The notes under the pieces were generated by a model, which searched no databases, was not told the DNA's origin, and was given only the letters and a program-made list of their open reading frames with translations. A stretch of 64,000 nucleotides of DNA from Parabacteroides massiliensis. GTDB taxonomy: Bacteria > Bacteroidota > Bacteroidia > Bacteroidales > Tannerellaceae. The stretch is from assembly GCF_900155425.1 (NCBI RefSeq), contig NZ_LT700189.1, forward strand, positions 675,787 through 739,786. The letters are read 5' to 3'. Within the stretch, counting starts at the first letter, position 1; every line of letters starts with the position of its first letter. Of the stretch, positions 44,078 through 53,868 are shown piece after piece. Position numbers and translations under genes: made by a program.

Positions 44078-44494
44078 TTAGACTGCTATTAATTCTTCTC
44101 CCAATACATGTAATGCTTCTTTTATTTGCATTTTCCTCTGAATGCTTGGTTTTTTAATGCCGTAAATATATTTAGAAAGAAGACTTTTATTAATTCCCAT
44201 ACTCCGTGCTACTTCTGACACGTTCAGTTGAGGGAAGCGTTTAAATATGGCAGCTATTTCATTTTCATAATCAGGCTCCACAGTCTCGAAGAAACTGGAA
44301 ATATGAATATCTTCATCTAATGATTCCCAACGGACATCATCACCAAACTTTCCTATCTTGAAATTAAGACGATCTTTATCACTTGCTTCTTTCAGTAAAG
44401 GAAATGCTTCTAACGGACGACTGAAAGTTTTTCCTGTGTCCGTTTTCATATAAATGCGATTTGCGTCAAACCAAATGTCTTTTATTATATCCAT
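44078..44494 (-). CDS. DUF2442-type protein with C-terminal helix-turn-helix
   Basis: The 138-residue protein begins with a compact beta domain of the DUF2442 type (DIWFDANRIYMKTDTGKTFSRPLEAFPLL, split here over two motifs: FDANRIYMKTDTGKT and RPLEAFPLLKEA). It ends with an HTH that resembles XRE/Cro-type DNA binding (NVSEVARSMGINKSLLSKYI). The combination suits an autoregulating antitoxin-like protein. It lies 18 bp downstream of the DUF4160 gene on the same strand, so the two form a pair. It is intact and has its own terminator. Confidence 0.75.
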   Translation of the reverse strand: MDIIKDIWFDANRIYMKTDTGKTFSRPLEAFPLLKEASDKDRLNFKIGKFGDDVRWESLDEDIHISSFFETVEPDYENEIAAIFKRFPQLNVSEVARSMGINKSLLSKYIYGIKKPSIQRKMQIKEALHVLGEELIAV

Positions 44495-44512
44495 AACTTT
44501 TAGTTTTATTGA

Positions 44513-44749
44513 TTATTCTCCGTGATATCTTCTCCAAGCGTCAATTATATCATCTTGATATGTTTCAATAATCACCAATGCTTTTTTTTAATCCTTTGGC
44601 TTTATACCATTATTCGATACAAGTTCTATTTTGGAATAAACATTAACTTTTGCCTTACCATCACCATTTTCTATATGAACATGAATAGGCAAATGTTCTT
44701 CTGAATAGAAATAAAATCGAATACCAAAAAGTTCAAATAAAGTTGGCAT
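44513..44749 (-). pseudogene. DUF4160 gene with an in-frame nonsense codon
   Basis: From the ATG at 44749 the frame reads MPTLFELFGIRFYFYSEEH and continues through HVHIENGDGKAKVNV to GIKPKD, then meets TAA at 44588-44590. The same frame continues without any shift for 24 more codons (KKALVIIETYQDDIIDAW, then RRYHGE) to a second stop at 44513-44515, 18 bp before the DUF2442 start. DUF4160 proteins normally include this C-terminal helix, so the first stop is probably a recent TTA to TAA change. The truncated form keeps the HxH region but loses about a third of the domain. Stop-codon readthrough cannot be ruled out. Confidence 0.8.
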
Positions 44750-44839
44750 AACTACATGATGTTTAATTTTATGATACAAATAAAGGGATAAATATTTATC
44801 CCTGCAAATAAACAGCCGAAAAAATAGCGGCAACTTCAA

Positions 44840-45158: not shown

Positions 45159-46046
45159 TCATTTACCTTCGACAGCACGTGTCTGCAAGACTTTGGAATC
45201 AGGCGGTACGCTATGGGTCAGCCAGATATTGCCACCGATTACGGAACCGCGGCCGATTGTGATCCGGCCCAAAATAGAAGCATTGGAATAGATCGTAACA
45301 TAATCTTCTATAATCGGATGGCGTGGCACGTCCATAGGCAAGCCTTCTTCATCCAGAGTAAAACTCTTTGCCCCCAACGTCACGCCTTGATAGAGACGGA
45401 CATGATTTCCGATCACAGCCGTCTGCCCGATCACAACGCCTGTTCCATGATCTATACTGAAATATTCTCCTATCTGCGCTCCCGGATGAATGTCTATTCC
45501 CGTGTCTGAATGGGCCATTTCCGTTATGATACGCGGAATCACGGGCACACCGAGTTTCAATAGCTCATGTGCCACTCGCTGATAAAGAATGGCATGGATT
45601 GCCGGATAACAAAAAATAATTTCACTTGGACTTTGGGCTGCCGGATCGCCATCTAAGATCGCTTTCACATCTGTCGATAACAGATACTTGATATGCGGAA
45701 TCTTATTAATGAAAGCGATGGCTATTTCTGATGCGCGATCCTTTGAGTCACAACAACGTTCGACCTCAAAGCACAGGCCGTTATAGATTTGTTCATGCAA
45801 CAGATCGTAGGCCTGTTCCAGATATACGCCCGTATAATATTGTATGGTGTCGGTCTGTGCCTCCTGTTCCGTCCCAAAGAAACCGGGGAAAATAATCTTG
45901 CGAAGCAGGCTCATGATCTCCCTGAGCGCTGTCACCGACGGTGATGTTTTTTGGTGTAGCGGAATGTATTTATACTCCGCTGAACCTGTAGCTGACAAGA
46001 GTTCTACGTTTTTTTGAATCTCTTCTAATATCTTTGTTCTGTTCAT
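45159..46046 (-). CDS. cysE: Serine O-acetyltransferase
   Basis: The 295-residue enzyme makes O-acetylserine for cysteine synthesis. An N-terminal helical region (about 1-150) leads to the left-handed beta-helix with hexapeptide repeats (HPGAQIGEYFSIDHGTGVVI, IGNHVRLYQGVTLGAKSF), including the catalytic Asp-His pair (SIDHGTG). It is of the long EpsC-type length. The ATG lies two bases after the stop of the Kelch lipoprotein gene, so it is translationally coupled to the signalling operon, an unusual location. A TTG two codons upstream is a less likely start. Confidence 0.93.
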   Translation of the reverse strand: MNRTKILEEIQKNVELLSATGSAEYKYIPLHQKTSPSVTALREIMSLLRKIIFPGFFGTEQEAQTDTIQYYTGVYLEQAYDLLHEQIYNGLCFEVERCCDSKDRASEIAIAFINKIPHIKYLLSTDVKAILDGDPAAQSPSEIIFCYPAIHAILYQRVAHELLKLGVPVIPRIITEMAHSDTGIDIHPGAQIGEYFSIDHGTGVVIGQTAVIGNHVRLYQGVTLGAKSFTLDEEGLPMDVPRHPIIEDYVTIYSNASILGRITIGRGSVIGGNIWLTHSVPPDSKVLQTRAVEGK

Positions 46047-46048
46047 GA

Positions 46049-48250
46049 TCAATTATCCCATATCGGATTATACATGATAAATTTGTTGACATAATAAAGA
46101 TCCTGTCCCAAAATATAGATTATACCATTCAACATAAACATGTGATAATTGTTCATGCGATAACCCAATAAAGAACGAGCAGTCCATTCACTGCTTGACA
46201 AATTATATTCCCATATCTTCCCGTTATTGTCAATCATAAAGAAGCTGTTTCGCCGTTCATCATAAACGCCTGATGAAACACTTCCTATTTTTTCAGGAAT
46301 AGATATCTGATTCCATATCTTCAAACTGTCCGAAGATTCCCAGAAGCCGTTTCTTATGCCGCTTCCGCCTTCTCCCAATCCGGCATAGACCTTATCTCCT
46401 ACGACCTGAACAATGCCGCCGCGCTGACGGGCCGGAAATTCAGCGACCATTTCCCAATCCGCGTCCGGAGAAGACAGGTCGTAGCGCAATATCTTATTCA
46501 TATTATTGCTTCCATCCGATCCGCCCAAGACATACAAAGAATCGCGATAGACGAAGCTGACAGAACCGAAACGGCCTTCAGGCAATGAATATCGCGCTGG
46601 TTCCGACCAGTTGTTGTCCAAATTGTATATCTGGCAATCAGCCCCTATCGTTTGTTTGTCTATACCGCCAAGGAGATATGCCTGGCTCCCATAAACAGCG
46701 GTACTCATCTGAGAGTAGGCTTTAGGGCAATCGGCCATGGAAATCCATTCATCTGCCTCTACATTATATCCAAACATTTCTTTACTGCGTTCACCTCCTA
46801 AGTCTCCCCCTACGACATAGATACGATCATCAAGTATGAACCCGGCAGAAAATTGCCTGTTAACTCCGGGATAAATATTTTTATTCTCAAAAATATTCGG
46901 GGTGGTGAAAGATTTGATTTCGCCATAACCGGTCAAACCGCTTTCATTAGTGGCATAAGTTCTTACATAATAGACTGTATTACCCTTTAACGACGGCAAT
47001 GCATACATGAAAAGCGTATCGTCTACGGCAACATGATTATCCTTGACACTCGGCTCCCGATTGCTTGAAGACCAGCAAATCCCCCACTCGACGGCGGCAC
47101 TGTTACCTCCATTCTGCAATTCACCGCCAATATGAACCGTTCCGTCGCTTTTGATCGAGTCCGGAGTGATAGCAAATGTGATAATATTCGGCTTCTCGCT
47201 TTTTGTCGAAATCGTAATTTCTTCTTCACTATATACCGTTCCGAACTCATTCACGGCATAAGCACGTGCATAATACTTCTTGGCCGATTCCAAATTTCGT
47301 ATTCTCCCGGTAAACAGACCGTCATCTGTCATGTTTGTGCACATGACCGTATCGGCCTCTATCGTCGGTTCTTCTTCAACACTCCAACAAAAACCATAGG
47401 CACTGACAGGCGCATCTCCTTCATTGATCAGGAAAGCCGAGAGATCGGCAGTGGTGAAAGTCGTACTGTCTTTTATCAAATTCAGCTTGCCTACCAAAGG
47501 TTTGCCATCTGTAGTCCTGAAAGAATCCACATTGAAAGCAAATTCGCCAAACTGATTTTTGGCAAAAGCACGTACATAATACCAGGTCTCCGGCTCGAGG
47601 TTCGTTATGTGGCAAGAGAAAGTATCGACAAGAGCCAAATCACTCTCTTCGTATGTGATGATTGAATCTTGATCCGAAGGTTCGATATTTCCGGCTTGTT
47701 CTTTCTTTTTGTAGTAGAAGCCTAACTTTTCAATGCCGACTCCCCTGCTTTTCACCTTCCCTTTCACCCAGACGGAAATAGCTTTTACGGTGGCGCTATC
47801 CACATCCAAAGTCGCGACTTCACCAATACCGTTTATTGTCGTATAGACTCCTTCTGTTTTTGAAAAAGCTGTATCTACATCATTAATGGCATAGGCATAT
47901 ACATAATATTTCGTACTATCTTCCAAGTTGGACATCGTTACCGTAAAATCATGGTTTTCGATTTTATCTGCTTTTTCAAATCGTTTGTCACGCATGTTTT
48001 CATGCGGTTCCGTTCCCTTTTGTGTACTCCAGCAAACCCCACATTCTTTTATCGGCAGACCGTTTTCTTTCACTACTTGAGCCCTTAACGTGATCGAAGA
48101 GGCATATGCTTCCCCTTCCATTGAAGTCTCGGAAACCTCCGGTGCCTTTGCATTCTGCAAGCGTGTATCCATATCCGGATCTTCCACACATCCGGACAGT
48201 ATCCATAAAAATGAAACTGCTGCTAAAAAGATTGAGTATATGTATTTCAT
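46049..48250 (-). CDS. Lipoprotein with FN3-like repeats and a Kelch propeller
   Basis: The 733-residue protein has a lipoprotein signal (LSGC lipobox, Cys21). Residues about 40-450 hold four or five beta-sandwich repeats, each with a CGVCWS/YGFCWS/WGICWS strand and a YYVRAYA.N..G strand, typical of FN3-like modules of Bacteroidota. Residues about 460-733 form a Kelch beta-propeller (VVGGDLGG, LLGGIDKQ, VLGGSDGS, VYAGLGEGG). Both folds usually bind proteins or glycans, so this is a good candidate envelope sensor or ligand-binding partner of the kinase encoded two genes upstream. No enzyme motif is visible. Confidence 0.88.
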   Translation of the reverse strand: MKYIYSIFLAAVSFLWILSGCVEDPDMDTRLQNAKAPEVSETSMEGEAYASSITLRAQVVKENGLPIKECGVCWSTQKGTEPHENMRDKRFEKADKIENHDFTVTMSNLEDSTKYYVYAYAINDVDTAFSKTEGVYTTINGIGEVATLDVDSATVKAISVWVKGKVKSRGVGIEKLGFYYKKKEQAGNIEPSDQDSIITYEESDLALVDTFSCHITNLEPETWYYVRAFAKNQFGEFAFNVDSFRTTDGKPLVGKLNLIKDSTTFTTADLSAFLINEGDAPVSAYGFCWSVEEEPTIEADTVMCTNMTDDGLFTGRIRNLESAKKYYARAYAVNEFGTVYSEEEITISTKSEKPNIITFAITPDSIKSDGTVHIGGELQNGGNSAAVEWGICWSSSNREPSVKDNHVAVDDTLFMYALPSLKGNTVYYVRTYATNESGLTGYGEIKSFTTPNIFENKNIYPGVNRQFSAGFILDDRIYVVGGDLGGERSKEMFGYNVEADEWISMADCPKAYSQMSTAVYGSQAYLLGGIDKQTIGADCQIYNLDNNWSEPARYSLPEGRFGSVSFVYRDSLYVLGGSDGSNNMNKILRYDLSSPDADWEMVAEFPARQRGGIVQVVGDKVYAGLGEGGSGIRNGFWESSDSLKIWNQISIPEKIGSVSSGVYDERRNSFFMIDNNGKIWEYNLSSSEWTARSLLGYRMNNYHMFMLNGIIYILGQDLYYVNKFIMYNPIWDN

Positions 48251-48262
48251 AAATTATTCTTA

Positions 48263-49213
48263 TTAGAAAAACAGGCCGATACCGGCATTCAAATCAACAT
48301 ATTTAAAATTCAATGTATTGCATCCCGCACTTACAAACACAGGACCGACTTTGATCATTACATCCAGATCGGCCGCCAATCCACTATAGGAATAATCCAA
48401 ATTCTTCGCCCAATAGGATTTTTCTATCCTGTGATCCGAGTTGTCGATTGTGGCATATTCACATAATAATTCCCGACTGCCATATCCCAGACCGACAGAC
48501 GTATATAACCAAGATGTACATTTGAAAACCACCCCCGCCGTTCCGGCATAACTATTCACCTTTTTCTTGTTCGTGAAATGATAGGCGTTATCGGATGTTG
48601 AACCAACCAGTTCATCCGTACCTCTGCATTCCCCGTCATAATCGTCAAAGCCCAGATTGGTTTTAAAACGAATAAACCACCCGAAACGGGATTTCACGCC
48701 TCCCACAGTCAGGCCATAAGGAGCTTCTATGGAGTAGGCATAACCCAAAAAGAACTTCATCGGTTCTTTGGGTTTGTCCGTCTTTATTTGATTGCCAGGT
48801 GAATAAAAGGCAGGTTCCGTCGGTTTGCGGAGTGTTTCCAAGCGGTCTTGCCAGGATTTTGCCAAAGTTTCATTTTTGGAAGTTCCTATTCCCTCGGTAT
48901 AATAGACTATCAACCGCGAAATAGCGGTCGTATCCTCATTGTTGGCCATCAGTTCCAGGCAAGCCCGACATTTGTTCATCAAACTATGCATTGAAGGACG
49001 CATCCGCTGGTTGGCTAACCATATCGAAGTGAGCTGCCCGATACTGTAAGGGTCACATTGCACGACACCTTCTTCATACCACATCCTTGCATCACTATAG
49101 TCCAGACGTTTCATCGCCTCGTCTCCTTTTCTGTTATATTCTGTTTTTTGTTGGGCCAGCAAGCACACCGGCAATACAACAAAAAGAATCAAAATCATCC
49201 AAAGTCTTTTCAT
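48263..49213 (-). CDS. Outer-membrane barrel protein with N-terminal helical repeats
   Basis: The product of about 316 residues has a signal peptide (MKRLWMILILFVVLPVCLLAQ), a helical repeat region (about 22-130, GDEAMKRLDYSDARMWYEEG, resembling Sel1/TPR units) and a C-terminal half of amphipathic beta strands ending in IGLFF, as expected for an outer-membrane barrel. It lies 8 bp after the kinase gene and 12 bp before the Kelch lipoprotein gene. An outer-membrane component next to a transmembrane kinase suggests that the pathway reads or controls envelope state. The family is not recognised. Confidence 0.75.
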   Translation of the reverse strand: MKRLWMILILFVVLPVCLLAQQKTEYNRKGDEAMKRLDYSDARMWYEEGVVQCDPYSIGQLTSIWLANQRMRPSMHSLMNKCRACLELMANNEDTTAISRLIVYYTEGIGTSKNETLAKSWQDRLETLRKPTEPAFYSPGNQIKTDKPKEPMKFFLGYAYSIEAPYGLTVGGVKSRFGWFIRFKTNLGFDDYDGECRGTDELVGSTSDNAYHFTNKKKVNSYAGTAGVVFKCTSWLYTSVGLGYGSRELLCEYATIDNSDHRIEKSYWAKNLDYSYSGLAADLDVMIKVGPVFVSAGCNTLNFKYVDLNAGIGLFF

Positions 49214-49221
49214 AAACACGT

Positions 49222-51054
49222 TTAATAATACGTTGATCCTTCATTTATCAATACGCCATCAGCATTATAGATATCGAACAAACCATCTTTACGTTCGAAA
49301 GCACGGCCATTTTCGGCGATCCCGACATTGCGGTATTTACATGGAATACGTTCGTTCGCATCCGAATCGATTGCTCCGTATAACATGGTCGATTTCTTTC
49401 GTACAATCGTAAAATTCCCGAAAGTCTTCTTCATCTCATATTGAGCTTTCCTGTCGGCCAAGAGTTTGGCTGCTTCCTTCTCGTCGCAAGAAATCAGAAG
49501 ACGTACGACCTCTTCCGTCAATTTGGTTTCTTTCGCTTTCGTGAAATCTTTCTTTGCATTCGTAAAATCAGCTTTCCCCATCTTCTCCTTGCCGGAAGCT
49601 ATCAGAGCGGCATATTCCGCATCAATTTCTTCGACGGTAGGCTGTAGTGGCTGTATTGTTATTTTATTCTCTTCTACCGGAATCCGCTTTGTTTCGGGTT
49701 GTTTCCGAGGTTCATCAACAACAACGGGTATAGCTTTTTCCGGCTGTCGCACCATTGTCGTTTCCGTTTTCTTATCTTCCTTGTCAAGCATAGGTTCTTC
49801 TTTCACCTCCGGAACAGTCGTTTCCGGAAGCTGTTGCTCCGAATCTTTTTTTTCTTCGACCGGACTGACCAACTCCGTTACGTTCGGTTTCGTAGAGGCT
49901 TTGTTTCCCTGAACCAGGAAAGCGACAGCAGATCCTACGCAGGCAAATATAGCAATAACCACGGAAACCAGTATCCACTTCCTTCTTTTCTTACGGGGTG
50001 ACTGATAAACGATTTCGTCGCTGTTTACAACCGTTCGGTCTTCATCGTTCTCATTATAAGTCGATTGTTCACTTTGATGAATGACTGTTGTCTCATCATC
50101 CTCTTCTTGTCCGTCTGTATTTTGCAATTTATTTGCGGGAGTTTCTTCTTCTTCCGCAGGAAGATCTAATGCTGCCATCATTTCGGCTATCGTCTGGAAA
50201 CGATCGGCCGGAATGATTTGCATTGCCTTGATTATGGCAGCTTCCGTCTTAGGCGATATATCCTTATTCAGTTCCGACGGTTTCAGTAAAGGATGTGTCG
50301 CCCGCAAAATAGATTCGGTCGGTATTTTCCCCGTCAAAAGGTTGTACATGGTAGCACCCAACGAATAGATATCCGGACAAGGTGAAAAGCTCTGTGTCCC
50401 TTCGTTGTCATATTGTTCGATCGAAGCAAATCCTTTTGACAAGGTAAGCATGGTCGTACTGGTTTCCTGTTGCTCGATATCGTATCGTTTGCTTACGCCG
50501 AAATCGATCAGACGCGCTTTCCCTGACGAGTCGATCAGGATATTGCTGGGTTTGATATCCAAATGAAGGATGTTCTTTTCGTGTACAAACCGGAGTGCTT
50601 CTCCTATTTGGCGAACATATCTGAGTACTTTCGTTTCCGGCAATACGCCTTCCCGCTCCATCATATACTTGAGGGAACAGCCGGAAATGTATTCCATGGC
50701 TATATAAGCCGTGTCGTTTTCTTCGAAAACCTCTAGTACATTCACTATATGGGGATGGTGGACTTCAGAAAGTATCTTGGCTTCCTTGATAAGTTTTTCC
50801 TTGAATTTATCGAAAAGAGCTCTTCCTGTCTCGGAGTGTACCTTGACAGCAAAAGATTCAGCTTCTCTGTAACAATAATCTTTAAAGAAGTATTCTTTTA
50901 TACAAATAGGCACCTCTGTTTGCACAGTTCCTAACGAACCCTTCACCTCCGTATACCAGACGCCTTTGTAAGTTATACCAAAGCCCCCCTGACCAATTAC
51001 ATGAGTGATCCGATATTTTCCATTCTGAAGAACATGTCCGTTTGGCAAATTCAT
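49222..51054 (-). CDS. Transmembrane Ser/Thr protein kinase
   Basis: The product of about 610 residues has an N-terminal Hanks-type kinase domain (about 14-300): glycine loop GQGGFGITY, ATP-binding Lys53 (CIKEYFFKDY), catalytic Asp166 in HLDIKPSN, DFG Asp184. An acidic juxtamembrane linker (300-357) contains DDETTVIH (Thr322/323) and EDRTVVN (Thr341), candidate autophosphorylation sites. One membrane helix (about 360-382) follows, and a periplasmic part with a TPR-like helical stretch and a C-terminal WG-repeat-like segment (ERKDGLFDIYNADGVLI). The chosen ATG begins MNLPNGHVLQNGKYRI, as in related kinases; another ATG lies five codons upstream. It is flanked by PP2C and by envelope proteins. 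Confidence 0.93.
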   Translation of the reverse strand: MNLPNGHVLQNGKYRITHVIGQGGFGITYKGVWYTEVKGSLGTVQTEVPICIKEYFFKDYCYREAESFAVKVHSETGRALFDKFKEKLIKEAKILSEVHHPHIVNVLEVFEENDTAYIAMEYISGCSLKYMMEREGVLPETKVLRYVRQIGEALRFVHEKNILHLDIKPSNILIDSSGKARLIDFGVSKRYDIEQQETSTTMLTLSKGFASIEQYDNEGTQSFSPCPDIYSLGATMYNLLTGKIPTESILRATHPLLKPSELNKDISPKTEAAIIKAMQIIPADRFQTIAEMMAALDLPAEEEETPANKLQNTDGQEEDDETTVIHQSEQSTYNENDEDRTVVNSDEIVYQSPRKKRRKWILVSVVIAIFACVGSAVAFLVQGNKASTKPNVTELVSPVEEKKDSEQQLPETTVPEVKEEPMLDKEDKKTETTMVRQPEKAIPVVVDEPRKQPETKRIPVEENKITIQPLQPTVEEIDAEYAALIASGKEKMGKADFTNAKKDFTKAKETKLTEEVVRLLISCDEKEAAKLLADRKAQYEMKKTFGNFTIVRKKSTMLYGAIDSDANERIPCKYRNVGIAENGRAFERKDGLFDIYNADGVLINEGSTYY

Positions 51055-51097
51055 AACATCTATGCGCAATTCTATTAATCTGCCAAAATTACGTTAT

Positions 51098-51925
51098 TTA
51101 TATAAAAGAATAAAGGAAAGAAAGTATATTTTGTTTAATTCCTGTGAAATCTAATACATTTTGTATGGGGATGATATAAAAAGAAAAGTTATCGCGTGTT
51201 TTCCCGCTGCAAGCAGACATAATTGCATTTTTAATCTCTTCCGGGCTGCCGGAATGCTCGAATATATCAGAAAGTTCCTCATTGCTAAGGCGTTCGAGCA
51301 CACCGTCCGAACACATAAACAGATAATCTCCGGCTTTGATATCGTTCAAAAGCACGACATCGGCTTCTGTCGGACGGTTCGTTCCTTGGATTGCCCGTAT
51401 GATTACGTTCCGCTGCGGGTGGTGTGCGGCCTCTTCACGGGTGATTTTTCCCAATTTCACCAACGAATTGACCAGTGAGTGATCTTCGGTCCGGAACAAG
51501 ATTTCTCCCTTACGGAAATGGTAAATCCGGCTGTCTCCCACATGTGCCAGAGTTATGCCGGTTGTCCCTACAAAGGTCATGGTCAGAGTGGTAGCCATTC
51601 CTTTGGCTTCCGGATGAATTGCTACATAGTCATCAAAACGTGCTTCGGTATAACGAATTGCTTTATTTATGAAACCGGCGTTCGGTTCACCTTCACGAAA
51701 AGTTGAAAAAAAAGCCTGAAAAGACTCGCAAGCCAACGAACTTGCAATTTCCCCTTTTTCTGCGCCTCCGACACCATCACAGACCAGAAACAAGTTTTGA
51801 TTGGAGTTTACTGTTTCCGGTAGAGGAAAGATGGAATCTTCATTATTCAATCTGCCTCCTTTTTCGCTGACAGCCCAAGGTTTGCCGATCGTTATATTCA
51901 TATAGCATAGACCATTTTTATTCAT
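51098..51925 (-). CDS. PP2C-type Ser/Thr protein phosphatase
   Basis: The 275-residue cytosolic phosphatase has the metal-binding motifs of the PP2C family: NNEDSIF, FLVCDGVGGAEKGE, LAHVGDSRIYHF, FMCSDGVLERLSNEE and the last Asp in KTRDNFSFYII. It should reverse the action of the kinase encoded immediately downstream. Its ATG overlaps the stop of the zinc-ribbon FHA gene by eight bases; the alternative ATG at 51901 would trim eight residues. Confidence 0.95.
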   Translation of the reverse strand: MNKNGLCYMNITIGKPWAVSEKGGRLNNEDSIFPLPETVNSNQNLFLVCDGVGGAEKGEIASSLACESFQAFFSTFREGEPNAGFINKAIRYTEARFDDYVAIHPEAKGMATTLTMTFVGTTGITLAHVGDSRIYHFRKGEILFRTEDHSLVNSLVKLGKITREEAAHHPQRNVIIRAIQGTNRPTEADVVLLNDIKAGDYLFMCSDGVLERLSNEELSDIFEHSGSPEEIKNAIMSACSGKTRDNFSFYIIPIQNVLDFTGIKQNILSFLYSFI

Positions 51926-52433
51926 TAAACCGGAGAACTGTGTGACCTATAATAATTTCATCATTATTATTGAGTACGACAATCTCTCCATTCTCTAAGT
52001 AATTGCTATTATATAACGTATGATTTTTGCTATTATTGTCAGAAAGATAATGTTTATAGCCGCCTTTGGCATCTTTTTTCACCTCGATCCGAATATGTTC
52101 CCGGCTCATTGATTTATCAGCCGTCACAATACCGATCGTAGCATTGGACGTATTGGATTTTCGTCCGATAATATGGACTCCTTCCTGAAGTGGAAAAGTT
52201 TGCCCAGGCGTATCAGCATTTGCTATTACAGAGAGACGTCCGGTTGTCATACAAAGAGGCTGTATCAGAACCGTTTCCGATTCAGATGTGGCACTTCCTT
52301 TCTCCATTGACAACAAAGAAACAGGAATCGGTTGTTTGCACTTCGGACATTTGAAAGAGGTGATATCGAGGGGAATTTTCCCCTCGTCTACCTTTAACCC
52401 AACATGGCAATGTGGACATTTAACGGAAATCAT
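51918..52433 (-). CDS. Zinc-ribbon and FHA domain protein
   Basis: The 171-residue protein starts with a zinc ribbon (Cys6, Cys9, Cys29, Cys32), then a short linker with ESETVLIQ (Thr54), then an FHA domain (about 80-170; HIIGRKS, MSREHIRI, and the Asn in NNSKNHTLYN) that should bind phosphothreonine. The linker Thr lies in an acidic T-V-[IVL] context like that in the kinase juxtamembrane region, so the protein may be both substrate and reader. It overlaps the acidic protein gene by four bases and PP2C by eight. Confidence 0.9.
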   Translation of the reverse strand: MISVKCPHCHVGLKVDEGKIPLDITSFKCPKCKQPIPVSLLSMEKGSATSESETVLIQPLCMTTGRLSVIANADTPGQTFPLQEGVHIIGRKSNTSNATIGIVTADKSMSREHIRIEVKKDAKGGYKHYLSDNNSKNHTLYNSNYLENGEIVVLNNNDEIIIGHTVLRFNE

Positions 52434-52669
52434 AGGATAAACGATATATCAGATCCGTCAATATCTGTTGAATATGTATCCAGCATGTCTGCATCGGACA
52501 ACATAACAGTGTCATCAGATAGTGTAATAAAATCAGAAGCATCAATGCTTTCATCAATCATCACAACATCCGACAAATCGTTTTCCCCGTCCACATCCAC
52601 GATAACAGCGTCAGTCGATATAACGTCGTCGCTGTCTAATGTCACGAATGTGTAATCCTCTTCTTGCAT
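52430..52669 (-). CDS. Highly acidic 79-residue protein without basic residues
   Basis: The protein has 24 Asp/Glu residues and no Lys, Arg or His. It is rich in Ser and Thr in acidic settings, for example LSDDTVMLSDADMLD (Thr54) and VTLDSDDV. No fold or family is recognised and no signal peptide is present. It begins the second transcription unit of the signalling cassette and is translationally coupled (ATGA overlap) to the zinc-ribbon FHA gene. Its composition suggests a disordered phosphorylation substrate or a decoy for the FHA domains. That is inference; the coding status rests on the overlap, the upstream promoter and the frame length. Confidence 0.7.
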   Translation of the reverse strand: MQEEDYTFVTLDSDDVISTDAVIVDVDGENDLSDVVMIDESIDASDFITLSDDTVMLSDADMLDTYSTDIDGSDISFIL

Positions 52670-52697
52670 AAAATGTTATAATTAAATTTTCTGGAAA

Positions 52698-52727
52698 CAA
52701 AAGTAAGGAAACGGACTGACATCCAAA
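52698..52727 (-). promoter_or_regulatory. Internal promoter of the signalling cassette
   Basis: On the minus strand TTTG (52724-52727) and TACTTTTG (52698-52705) are separated by 18 nt, a full consensus match, 29 bp before the acidic protein gene. It can drive acidic protein, FHA, PP2C, kinase and downstream genes separately from LytTR. Confidence 0.75.
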
Positions 52728-52804
52728 CACAAAATAGTTCCTTATAATCAAATGTTTGGGTTTACTGTACGAAAGTATTACTTTTAGTATATGAAACGGG
52801 AATC

Positions 52805-53458
52805 CTACTCGCTCACCCATTTAGCCTTACAGGAAGGCATCGGGCATTGTTTTCTGTTGCGTAATGATTCCCAGGGTATTTCACCTAAGAACGTTCCACA
52901 CTTGGGGCATACATAGTCGATTTTGAATTGATTGGTCAAATCTTGCAACAATTGCGGGATCTTGGCCGACTGTTTCGCACCCAGGTAGATACCGACTGTC
53001 GGAGCGCAGACCGTAATAAACAAACTTAGCCCGAACAATTCCGGACTTCCTTTCCCCAAAAAGCCAATCACGACCCCCACTACACCGGGGATGGCAAACG
53101 GAAGAGACTGAAACAATCTGGTTTTAAATTGGTTGGACGATTGTATCTTAACCTTTGCTTGAATGTAATTGTCATACACCTGCTTCAGTGCTGCAAATTC
53201 CTCGCTGTAATCATTGCTGGACTTCAGGGCTTCAGACATGTTTAACACATAATTGTCTCCCAGTTTGATTGTGTCGCTTGGAGTTACATGTTTCTTAACG
53301 ATTTGGGAGCCATTGACAAATGTTCCGTTTGTCGACCCCAAATCTTCAAGCAGCCAACATCCTCCCTCTTCACGAACCAGCTTTGCGTGGTGGCGGCTTA
53401 CATGAGGATCGTTCACTACAAAATCATTATCGTTTGCTTTTCCAATCTTAATGATCAT
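52805..53458 (-). CDS. Membrane FHA protein with C-terminal zinc ribbon
   Basis: The 217-residue protein opens with an FHA domain (IKIGKANDNDF, SRHH at 21-24, STNGTFVNG at 42-50), then a helical stretch, two membrane helices (about 118-138 and 143-165), and a C-terminal zinc ribbon (YVCPKCGTF and QCPMPSCKAKW). It should sit in the inner membrane and bind phosphothreonine partners, possibly the kinase linker. It overlaps the LytTR gene by four bases, so the two are translated together. Confidence 0.9.
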   Translation of the reverse strand: MIIKIGKANDNDFVVNDPHVSRHHAKLVREEGGCWLLEDLGSTNGTFVNGSQIVKKHVTPSDTIKLGDNYVLNMSEALKSSNDYSEEFAALKQVYDNYIQAKVKIQSSNQFKTRLFQSLPFAIPGVVGVVIGFLGKGSPELFGLSLFITVCAPTVGIYLGAKQSAKIPQLLQDLTNQFKIDYVCPKCGTFLGEIPWESLRNRKQCPMPSCKAKWVSE

Positions 53459-53868
53459 TCCGTAATTTCTTTTGGTTCCTCTGTTTTTCCCATTTCCTTT
53501 TCGAGTGTGTCTTTCAGCACCTTCAAAGGATCTTTGGATATCACCAGTTCTCTCGGTTTTCCATCTTGTGTCAGCAATAACAGTTTCTGCTTGGGCAAGT
53601 TTATCTGTAAGATATGATTTTTATTGATGATATGGCTTTTGCCAACGCGCATCAAGATTGCGTTACAACCTGCCACCTGCTTCTCCAATATTTCTTCAAT
53701 TTTTCCTATGTTAATTGCAAATGTAAATTGAATTCCGTTGGATAAAAGTAGTTTAGTGTAATTTCTATCGGCTTCAAAATAGAGGATTTGCCCTATTTTG
53801 ATGCGCAACAATTCATCTCTCGTCTTAATTATTAAATATCGCTCCATACGTAGATATTGTTTATTCAT
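53455..53868 (-). CDS. Stand-alone LytTR DNA-binding regulator
   Basis: The 137-residue protein is a single LytTR domain (ILYFEADRNYTKLLLSNG, MRVGKSHIINKNHILQIN), a beta fold that binds direct-repeat operators. It has no receiver domain, so it is not a classical response regulator. A C-terminal acidic tail (EKEMGKTEEPKEITE) carries Thr residues that the kinase could target. As first gene of the cassette it is the natural transcriptional output. The ATG seven codons in (53847) is an alternative start. Confidence 0.92.
   Translation of the reverse strand: MNKQYLRMERYLIIKTRDELLRIKIGQILYFEADRNYTKLLLSNGIQFTFAINIGKIEEILEKQVAGCNAILMRVGKSHIINKNHILQINLPKQKLLLLTQDGKPRELVISKDPLKVLKDTLEKEMGKTEEPKEITE

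Follow-up and report, generated by a model that had tools for sequence, protein, structure and literature searches.

A conserved kinase, PP2C, FHA and LytTR gene cassette with a candidate operator in Parabacteroides massiliensis and its family

Gene content of the cassette

We analysed 64,000 nucleotides of Parabacteroides massiliensis DNA (assembly GCF_900155425.1, contig NZ_LT700189.1, forward-strand positions 675,787 to 739,786; hereafter the window), in which positions 53868-45159 hold a run of nine minus-strand genes. In reading order, they encode a LytTR DNA-binding protein, a membrane FHA protein (FHA1), a small acidic protein (ACID), a second FHA protein (FHA2), a PP2C-type phosphatase, a Hanks-type kinase, an exported protein (TPR/OMP), an FN3/Kelch protein and a CysE-like serine acetyltransferase. 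Its most surprising features are the closed Ser/Thr system, the pairing of LytTR with an FHA protein, and a near-unique operator-like site phased with a promoter. The original prediction, made from the letters of the window, had described ten adjacent genes separated mostly by less than 20 bp. This observation was confirmed with small corrections: the strand, the adjacency and the order of all named genes within 45159-53868 were borne out, the genes number nine (as in the list that the prediction itself gave), and most gaps are below 20 bp, the exceptions being FHA1-ACID (135 bp) and PP2C-kinase (approximately 40 bp).

The LytTR gene (53455..53868, minus strand; PF04397, E = 7.9e-10) encodes 137 amino acids as read, and most homologues begin at the ATG at 53847 in the alignment. 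The protein has no receiver domain by Pfam, which was run on the eight cassette proteins other than ACID, and no transmembrane-like window, indicating a soluble-type regulator. FHA1 (52805..53458, minus strand; PF00498, E = 7.2e-20) comprises an N-terminal FHA domain, a coil, two transmembrane-like windows (residues 115-133 and 141-159) and a C-terminal zinc ribbon. Its residues S21, R22, H24 and G45 and its four cysteines are each present in 79/79 homologues, and N44 in 78/79. FHA1 also matched the NCBIfam FhaB model NF049868 (E = 2e-17), below the cut-off.

ACID (52430..52669, minus strand) is a strongly acidic 79-residue open reading frame (ORF) without lysine or arginine, and 44 of 70 homologues likewise lack any basic residue. 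It has 396 relatives at E ≤ 0.01, and ACID itself gave no match with NCBIfam or PADLOC, the two collections with which it was scanned. F8 and V9 are found in all 70 homologues and D12, D46 and I48 in 69, and the gene overlaps that of FHA2 by 4 bp in 66/68 pairs. The idea of a folded domain was rejected, AlphaFold2 giving no confident structure (mean pLDDT 44.8); ACID is probably disordered, a model-based view for which the shallow 20-row alignment is no proof.

FHA2 (51918..52433, minus strand; PF00498, E = 1.4e-11) consists of an N-terminal zinc ribbon of the MJ0042 type, a linker and a C-terminal FHA domain. Residues R91, S110, R111, H113 and N137 are each conserved in 74/74 non-redundant homologues, as is the linker threonine T54 (SETVLI), with hydrophobic residues after it; at the other linker positions 42-58 the majority residue occurs in only 12-44 of the 74. 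The phosphatase gene (51098..51925, minus strand; homologue-backed start 51904) encodes a PP2C-type Ser/Thr phosphatase (PF13672, PP2C_2, E = 1.2e-15), which matched an Stp1-type model at 2.5e-55, below the cut-off. Its metal-site aspartates are near-invariant among 78 homologues (D22 in 77, D42 in 76, D199 in 78 and D237 in 77).

The kinase gene (49222..51069, minus strand; PF00069, E = 1.1e-41; homologue-backed start 51057) encodes a transmembrane Hanks-type kinase with a kinase domain, an acidic linker containing Thr motifs, a transmembrane segment near residue 361 and a periplasmic part, in which a weak WG repeat was seen (E = 0.0056, below the cut-off). The catalytic residues (P-loop glycines, K53, HxDxKxxN and DFG) are intact in 73/73 homologues. 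The linker motif [DE].?T.?[VIL][VIL] occurs in 56/73 kinases compared with 9.8% of shuffled linkers, and at least two copies occur in 31/73 compared with 0.4%. The kinase matched a PASTA-kinase model at 2e-57, below the cut-off, and the Pfam scan revealed no PASTA repeats. The sole Pkinase match and the sole PP2C_2 match of this genome (99.9% complete) lie in the cassette, together with two of its three FHA matches. The proposal of a self-contained system stands within the Pkinase, PP2C_2 and FHA models, other kinase and phosphatase families lying outside the search. The third FHA protein is a zinc-ribbon, FHA2-like paralogue located off the cassette (G000:C1:1292111-1292341, G000 being this genome; L091:8354-8884).

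The TPR/OMP gene (48263..49219, minus strand; start 49213) encodes an exported protein with a hydrophobic, signal-like N-terminus and an N-terminal region that appears TPR-like by eye. The whole protein has no Pfam match; its C-terminal part matched OMP_b-brl at E = 0.09, below the cut-off, and among 51 sequences no fewer than 90% end in phenylalanine. The C-terminus is possibly an outer-membrane barrel; the earlier assignment of a barrel is only weakly supported by these three traits. The adjoining gene (46049..48250, minus strand) encodes an FN3/Kelch protein (Kelch, E = 5.7e-16; fn3, E = 8.9e-9) whose N-terminus looks like that of a lipoprotein by eye. The last gene (45159..46052, minus strand; start 46046) encodes the CysE-like serine acetyltransferase (Hexapep, E = 1e-9; NCBIfam cysE, 3.9e-46, below the cut-off).

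Conservation, breakpoints and divergent cassettes

FHA1 matches (E ≤ 1e-5) and kinase matches (E ≤ 1e-20) were each found in 107/123 genomes of the family, and each in 58/61 of the high-quality genomes; some of these matches are divergent copies (G217) or no more than weak kinase matches (G238). Both genes were present in 105 of the 123 genomes and neither in 14, while FHA1 alone was found in two (G230, G235) and the kinase alone in two (G200, with a stop, and G156, a weak match). The neighbourhood is conserved beyond one genome, across the family, and the kinase and FHA genes do not always occur separately, in agreement with the original prediction on both counts. The cluster is dispensable, because the near-complete genomes G207 (99%) and G269 (98%) have neither gene. 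Across the order Bacteroidales, 15/149 genomes had FHA1 matches, two of them from the genus of the window.

The core order LytTR-FHA1-ACID-FHA2-PP2C-kinase-TPR/OMP-Kelch was intact in 35/44 loci of one set and 46/63 of a second, the latter bearing the titles Parabacteroides, Tannerella (T. forsythia among them), Tannerellaceae and some broader names, and including a full cassette under the title P. distasonis (L098). Some genomes occur in both sets, and several non-intact loci stop at contig edges or are split halves. LytTR accompanies FHA1 in 41/41 and 62/63 FHA1 loci, the exception (L154) beginning at a contig end. LytTR-FHA1 is the tightest and most persistent pair. Identity to the window drops from the inside of the cassette to its outside, with medians of 81% for LytTR (65 non-redundant family homologues), 68% for FHA1, 65% for FHA2, 63% for PP2C, 56% for the kinase, 54% for ACID, 46% for TPR/OMP and 32% for the FN3/Kelch protein, the fastest-changing part. 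The cysE gene adjoins the cassette here, as predicted, and is not a constant member: it was present in 28/35 and 18/46 full loci of the two sets and in 1/29 Tannerella-titled loci, some of which are ended by contig edges. It is a lineage-limited neighbour rather than a core part.

In three genomes (G206, G226 and G153) the break in the cluster falls after PP2C and before the kinase, and the envelope half is therefore separable. G170 has LytTR-FHA1 on one contig and the kinase half on another, and in L117 and L152 LytTR-FHA1 stands alone, with no other cassette genes in the 10 kb after FHA1. Other variants were also seen. The cassette copies in L070 (G266) and L088 (G268) are seemingly decaying, several of their genes being interrupted by in-frame stops or breaks of the frame; L066 (G177) and L136 carry a second LytTR and a partial FHA1 directly upstream of a full cassette; and in the Tannerella-titled L151, CysE directly follows the kinase, with no match to TPR/OMP or Kelch.

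A pyruvate phosphate dikinase gene lies upstream of the cassette; downstream are a gene for a DUF2442 protein (window 44078-44839), located behind a short ORF, and then TPR and GyrA genes. The short ORF resembles what we take to be a DUF4160 partner, and the two are possibly a toxin-antitoxin-like pair. As originally stated, no secretion gene was recognised, here in the 10 flanking ORFs scanned (one of them matchless), the other ORFs of the window lying outside the scan. The same ORFs bear on an account in which the cassette is a growth or division kinase system like PknB-FhaB, its FHA proteins scaffolding cell-wall enzymes and its LytTR gene being incidental. The sub-cut-off resemblance of FHA1 to FhaB (2e-17) and of the kinase to PASTA kinases (2e-57) would fit this account, as would the wide retention in the family. 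We regard it as very improbable, as the kinase has no PASTA repeats, no cell-wall or division gene was recognised in the 10 flanking ORFs, and no gene keeps closer company with FHA1 than LytTR.

We also scanned 26 loci with divergent cassettes elsewhere in Bacteroidota, one of which (L071) is from the core set. Most carry FHA1-like, FHA2-like, PP2C and kinase genes in varied orders. FHA1 has a clear LytTR beside it in L067, L085, L087, L078 and L071 and a weak one nearby in L073 and L185; the remaining 19 loci, which include several short contigs, gave no LytTR. In many inspected loci a longer acidic protein (233-492 amino acids) lies near FHA1 or FHA2, as at L085:6839-7762, L067:6565-7536, L087:13942-14781, L185:8282-9406, L186:8546-9496 and L189:8646-9632. 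These proteins, probably located in the membrane, have Asp-rich repeats and a stretch, MSFxxAF...EVGPGGxFEWHG, that is conserved. None of eight scanned was above the Pfam cut-off, and 338 relatives were found at E ≤ 1e-5 among 8000 scored candidates. The idea that ACID is a relic of the long proteins was rejected, and homology is not claimed because the profile comparison was weak (32 columns, probability 14.6%); a search of the window's own genome with the long-form profile, run without a positive control, was empty. Secreted-looking proteins with a caspase domain (Peptidase_C14) are encoded beside FHA1 at L067:10744-11493 and L078:9091-9807. Repeats in the gaps of divergent cassettes are suggestive at most: the shuffle counts (of 300, uncorrected for 15 gaps) were 2 upstream of LytTR in L067, 7 in L073, 14 before the kinase in L085 and 16 upstream of LytTR in L087, the rest being weaker.

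Candidate operator and promoters

The two long gaps keep their size in the family, with medians of 135 bp for FHA1-ACID (67 pairs, range 122-204 bp) and 43 bp for PP2C-kinase (69 pairs), and both contain a -7-like box. The FHA1-ACID gap holds a footprint over 67 loci that we regard as a candidate LytTR operator (52745..52774, minus strand), bipartite with a half-site spacing of 21 bp. Its GTAC is present in 67/67 loci and a G at +21 in 66/67, and the match of the footprint to itself over the loci is highest at offset 21 (6.76 of 13, the next best among offsets 15-28 being 5.28). Tannerella-type loci nearly repeat the first half-site in the second, which reads TTTGATTA in Parabacteroides.

Downstream of the site, a -7 box of the Bacteroidetes type, TACTTTTG (TAnnTTTG; 52698..52705, minus strand) precedes ACID-FHA2-PP2C, accompanied by a TTTG -33-like element at 52724-52727. 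TAnnTTTG follows the site in 65/67 loci compared with 6.8% of shuffled sequences, at a distance of 65-66 bp in 53 of the 67, of 76-77 bp in 11, which adds one helical turn, and of 132 bp in one. By arithmetic on these distances, the site is readable as 9-12-9 bp placed approximately 10-11 bp from the -33 position. Elsewhere in the window, the best place scored 5.4 bits compared with 50.6 bits at the ACID site. The second -7-like box, TAATTTTG, lies upstream of the kinase (51084..51091, minus strand) and appears as a conserved TA..TTTG in the PP2C-kinase gap alignment of 68 loci.

The boxes before both ACID and the kinase imply that the parts can be regulated apart. Together with the parting of PP2C from the kinase in G206, G226 and G153, they speak for a reading of the cassette as two stable neighbours. 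One would be a post-translational kinase/PP2C/FHA regulator of the envelope; the other, LytTR-FHA1, would act at the ACID promoter with no phosphothreonine involved, FHA1 being a constitutive tether or receiving another input. Such an arrangement seems unlikely to us, given that the phosphothreonine-binding residues of FHA1 are kept almost without exception and that FHA1 and the kinase are nearly always present or absent together, even where they lie apart in the genome.

The site is concentrated at the cassette. Allowing at most one mismatch, the pattern search over 38 genomes of the genus gave 29 matches, compared with none for the reversed-pattern control; 27 were at the cassette, 26 beside FHA1 and one beside the kinase at a contig break (G192). 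Off-cassette matches were confined to this genome and G203. With up to three mismatches, the window's own genome gave eight matches compared with none in the control: the exact one at the cassette, one with one mismatch, one with two and five with three. The two strongest off-cassette matches were inspected, and only one seemed notable: an operator-like site with one mismatch (G000:C2:683609-683638; L203:10610-10639), located between a gene for a hybrid two-component/AraC regulator and a gene for an Mfa2-type fimbrial anchor. The Tannerella-type pattern with up to three mismatches gave 52 matches across the 41 genomes of the genus to which G224 belongs, 35 of them beside FHA1 and 17 elsewhere by our reading, compared with 27 for the reversed control. 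One of the 17, an exact match at a contig end in G235, may be the cassette's own, and the others are no more than noise. A wider regulon was rejected. Where the original prediction had the LytTR output joined to envelope partners, the predicted target here is the cassette's own ACID-FHA2-PP2C operon, and the genome pattern searches showed no envelope regulon.

It is quite improbable, in our view, that some regulator other than LytTR occupies the conserved site and that LytTR has its targets elsewhere, such as fimbrial genes. The one-mismatch site by the regulator and Mfa2-type genes and the eight LytTR matches of the genome speak for such a division. Against it, only this genome and G203 of the 38 have off-cassette matches, that of G203 is upstream of no gene start, and the site is absent from all four genomes of the genus that lack an FHA1 match (G198, G200, G207 and G213).

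A possible phosphothreonine relay and its relation to known systems

We give an even chance to the reading that a phosphothreonine relay of the Hanks-type kinase and PP2C controls the one-domain LytTR regulator through membrane-bound FHA1. The periplasmic part of the kinase and its exported partners would sense the state of the envelope. The kinase would phosphorylate threonines in its own cytosolic linker and in the FHA2 linker, and probably in ACID too, the conserved Thr motifs being putative phosphothreonine sites for the FHA domains, which would read the marks that PP2C erases. FHA1, encoded with LytTR, would hold or release LytTR by phosphothreonine binding, and LytTR would act at the repeat upstream of ACID-FHA2-PP2C, re-setting the relay's own adaptors and phosphatase. 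The original interpretation, a pathway from envelope to transcription, is in this respect partly supported: the comparative evidence is good, and the function is a prediction from sequence. What computation shows is the gene content and order with their conservation, the joint presence or absence of FHA1 and the kinase, the persistence of the LytTR-FHA1 pair, catalytic and FHA residues that hardly vary, the Thr motifs, and the phased footprint that is close to unique in the genus.

Several points weigh against this reading. Kinase activity, the FHA-ligand pairs, contact of FHA1 with LytTR, binding of LytTR at the footprint, the sign of regulation and the signal are what we infer by computation; the proposed sensing has topology as its only basis, and the fold of the TPR/OMP C-terminus is a prediction. 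The linker motif as written is missing from 17/73 kinases, the linker shuffles ignore the relatedness of the sequences, and the ACID threonines are not strict (T7 in 59, T10 in 56, T49 in 61 and T54 in 42 of 70). FHA domains usually have an arginine at the GR position, whereas position 7 of FHA1 is lysine in 78/79 homologues. As to the operator, its second half-site is degenerate in Parabacteroides, its 9-bp frame was picked after the fact, and its letters resemble the repeats published for LytTR regulatory systems (LRS) only loosely; it also lies upstream of ACID, whereas the sites of published LRS would place it before the LytTR-FHA1 operon. The case for the operator rests on conservation because the window gap alone fails the shuffle test (23/300, its best repeat being a different one). 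Among the 38 genus genomes, 11 have no pattern match, including seven with an FHA1 match, and the site could serve another regulator, since LytTR matches number eight in this genome.

Taking the proposed relay further, we tentatively suggest, at somewhat less than an even chance, that the cassette is a phosphothreonine-gated relative of LRS. FHA1 would be a membrane anti-regulator, its grip on LytTR would be set by the kinase and PP2C via ACID as a disordered phospho-adaptor, and the regulon would be roughly the cassette itself; the divergent Bacteroidota versions, with a larger acidic and sometimes a caspase-like protein, would extend it to a wider, undescribed class. If true, this would join eukaryote-like Ser/Thr phosphorylation with LytTR/membrane-protein systems, hitherto described apart, in a family of common human gut and mouth bacteria (Parabacteroides/Tannerella). 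With only one Pkinase and one PP2C_2 match in this genome, loss of one gene may abolish most phosphorylation of the Hanks type, giving a clean system, and direct tests could be aimed at the one candidate operator, at the kinase linker and at T54 of FHA2. Input from a kinase would be one route for the activation of LRS, whose signals are little known (PMC6193735).

Antiphage defence was rejected: FHA1, FHA2, LytTR and ACID have no PADLOC match, PP2C has one weak match, and the PADLOC matches of the kinase are to many kinase models; an accessory defence island is not suggested because of the retention in 107/123 genomes. The TerY-P triad places a vWA protein beside a kinase and a PP2C, and no vWA match was found among the eight cassette proteins and 10 flanking ORFs. 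ArnA is an FHA protein with a zinc finger in an archaeal kinase/phosphatase pathway; FHA1 matched its structure (PDB 5a8i, E = 1.2e-5), a resemblance alongside which organism, target and partners differ.

An EmbR entry was also among the FHA1 matches. EmbR carries its FHA domain inside the regulator itself, whereas in the cassette the DNA-binding protein and the FHA proteins are encoded by separate genes and one FHA protein is membranous. Mycobacterial Hanks kinases act on FHA proteins, including this regulator (PknH-EmbR, PknB-GarA and Rv0019c/FhaB), and the threonine phosphorylation pathway of the type VI secretion system, PpkA-PppA-Fha, comprises a kinase, a PP2C and an FHA protein (PMC6213207). 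The cassette resembles the latter in having this set of three. A type VI pathway was rejected, with no type VI gene among the eight cassette proteins and 10 flanking ORFs, the rest of the genome lying outside the search; FHA1 scored 40 bits against TagH, far below the cut-off of 120.

Open-access PubMed Central texts, which leave subscription journals mostly uncovered, gave no paper pairing LytTR with an FHA (forkhead-associated) domain, whether in Bacteroidetes or together with a threonine kinase; for LytTR in Parabacteroides they gave two papers on diet. The closest comparison is with LRS such as HdrRM and BrsRM. In these (PMC6193735), the LytTR regulator gene precedes the gene for a membrane inhibitor; the promoter of the operon that encodes the regulator has, approximately 10-11 bp before it, repeats of approximately 9 bp that are mostly 12 bp apart (11-13); and the five membrane proteins of S. 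mutans LRS have no kinase or other enzymatic domain. In the LRS-like operons of Bacteroides the two genes stand in reverse order, the proteins are of the NfeD/DUF2154 kind and the LytTR regulators are bound to the membrane (PMC6193735). Like these systems, the cassette has a soluble LytTR regulator without a receiver, its gene lying directly before that of a small membrane protein (FHA1); the footprint, for its part, can be read as repeats approximately 12 bp apart that precede a promoter by approximately 10-11 bp. It differs in that the membrane protein carries an FHA domain and a zinc ribbon, the site lies before ACID-FHA2-PP2C and not before the LytTR operon, and the whole is joined to a Ser/Thr kinase and PP2C. 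By analogy, we describe the cassette as one that may work like an LRS, and do not class it as one.

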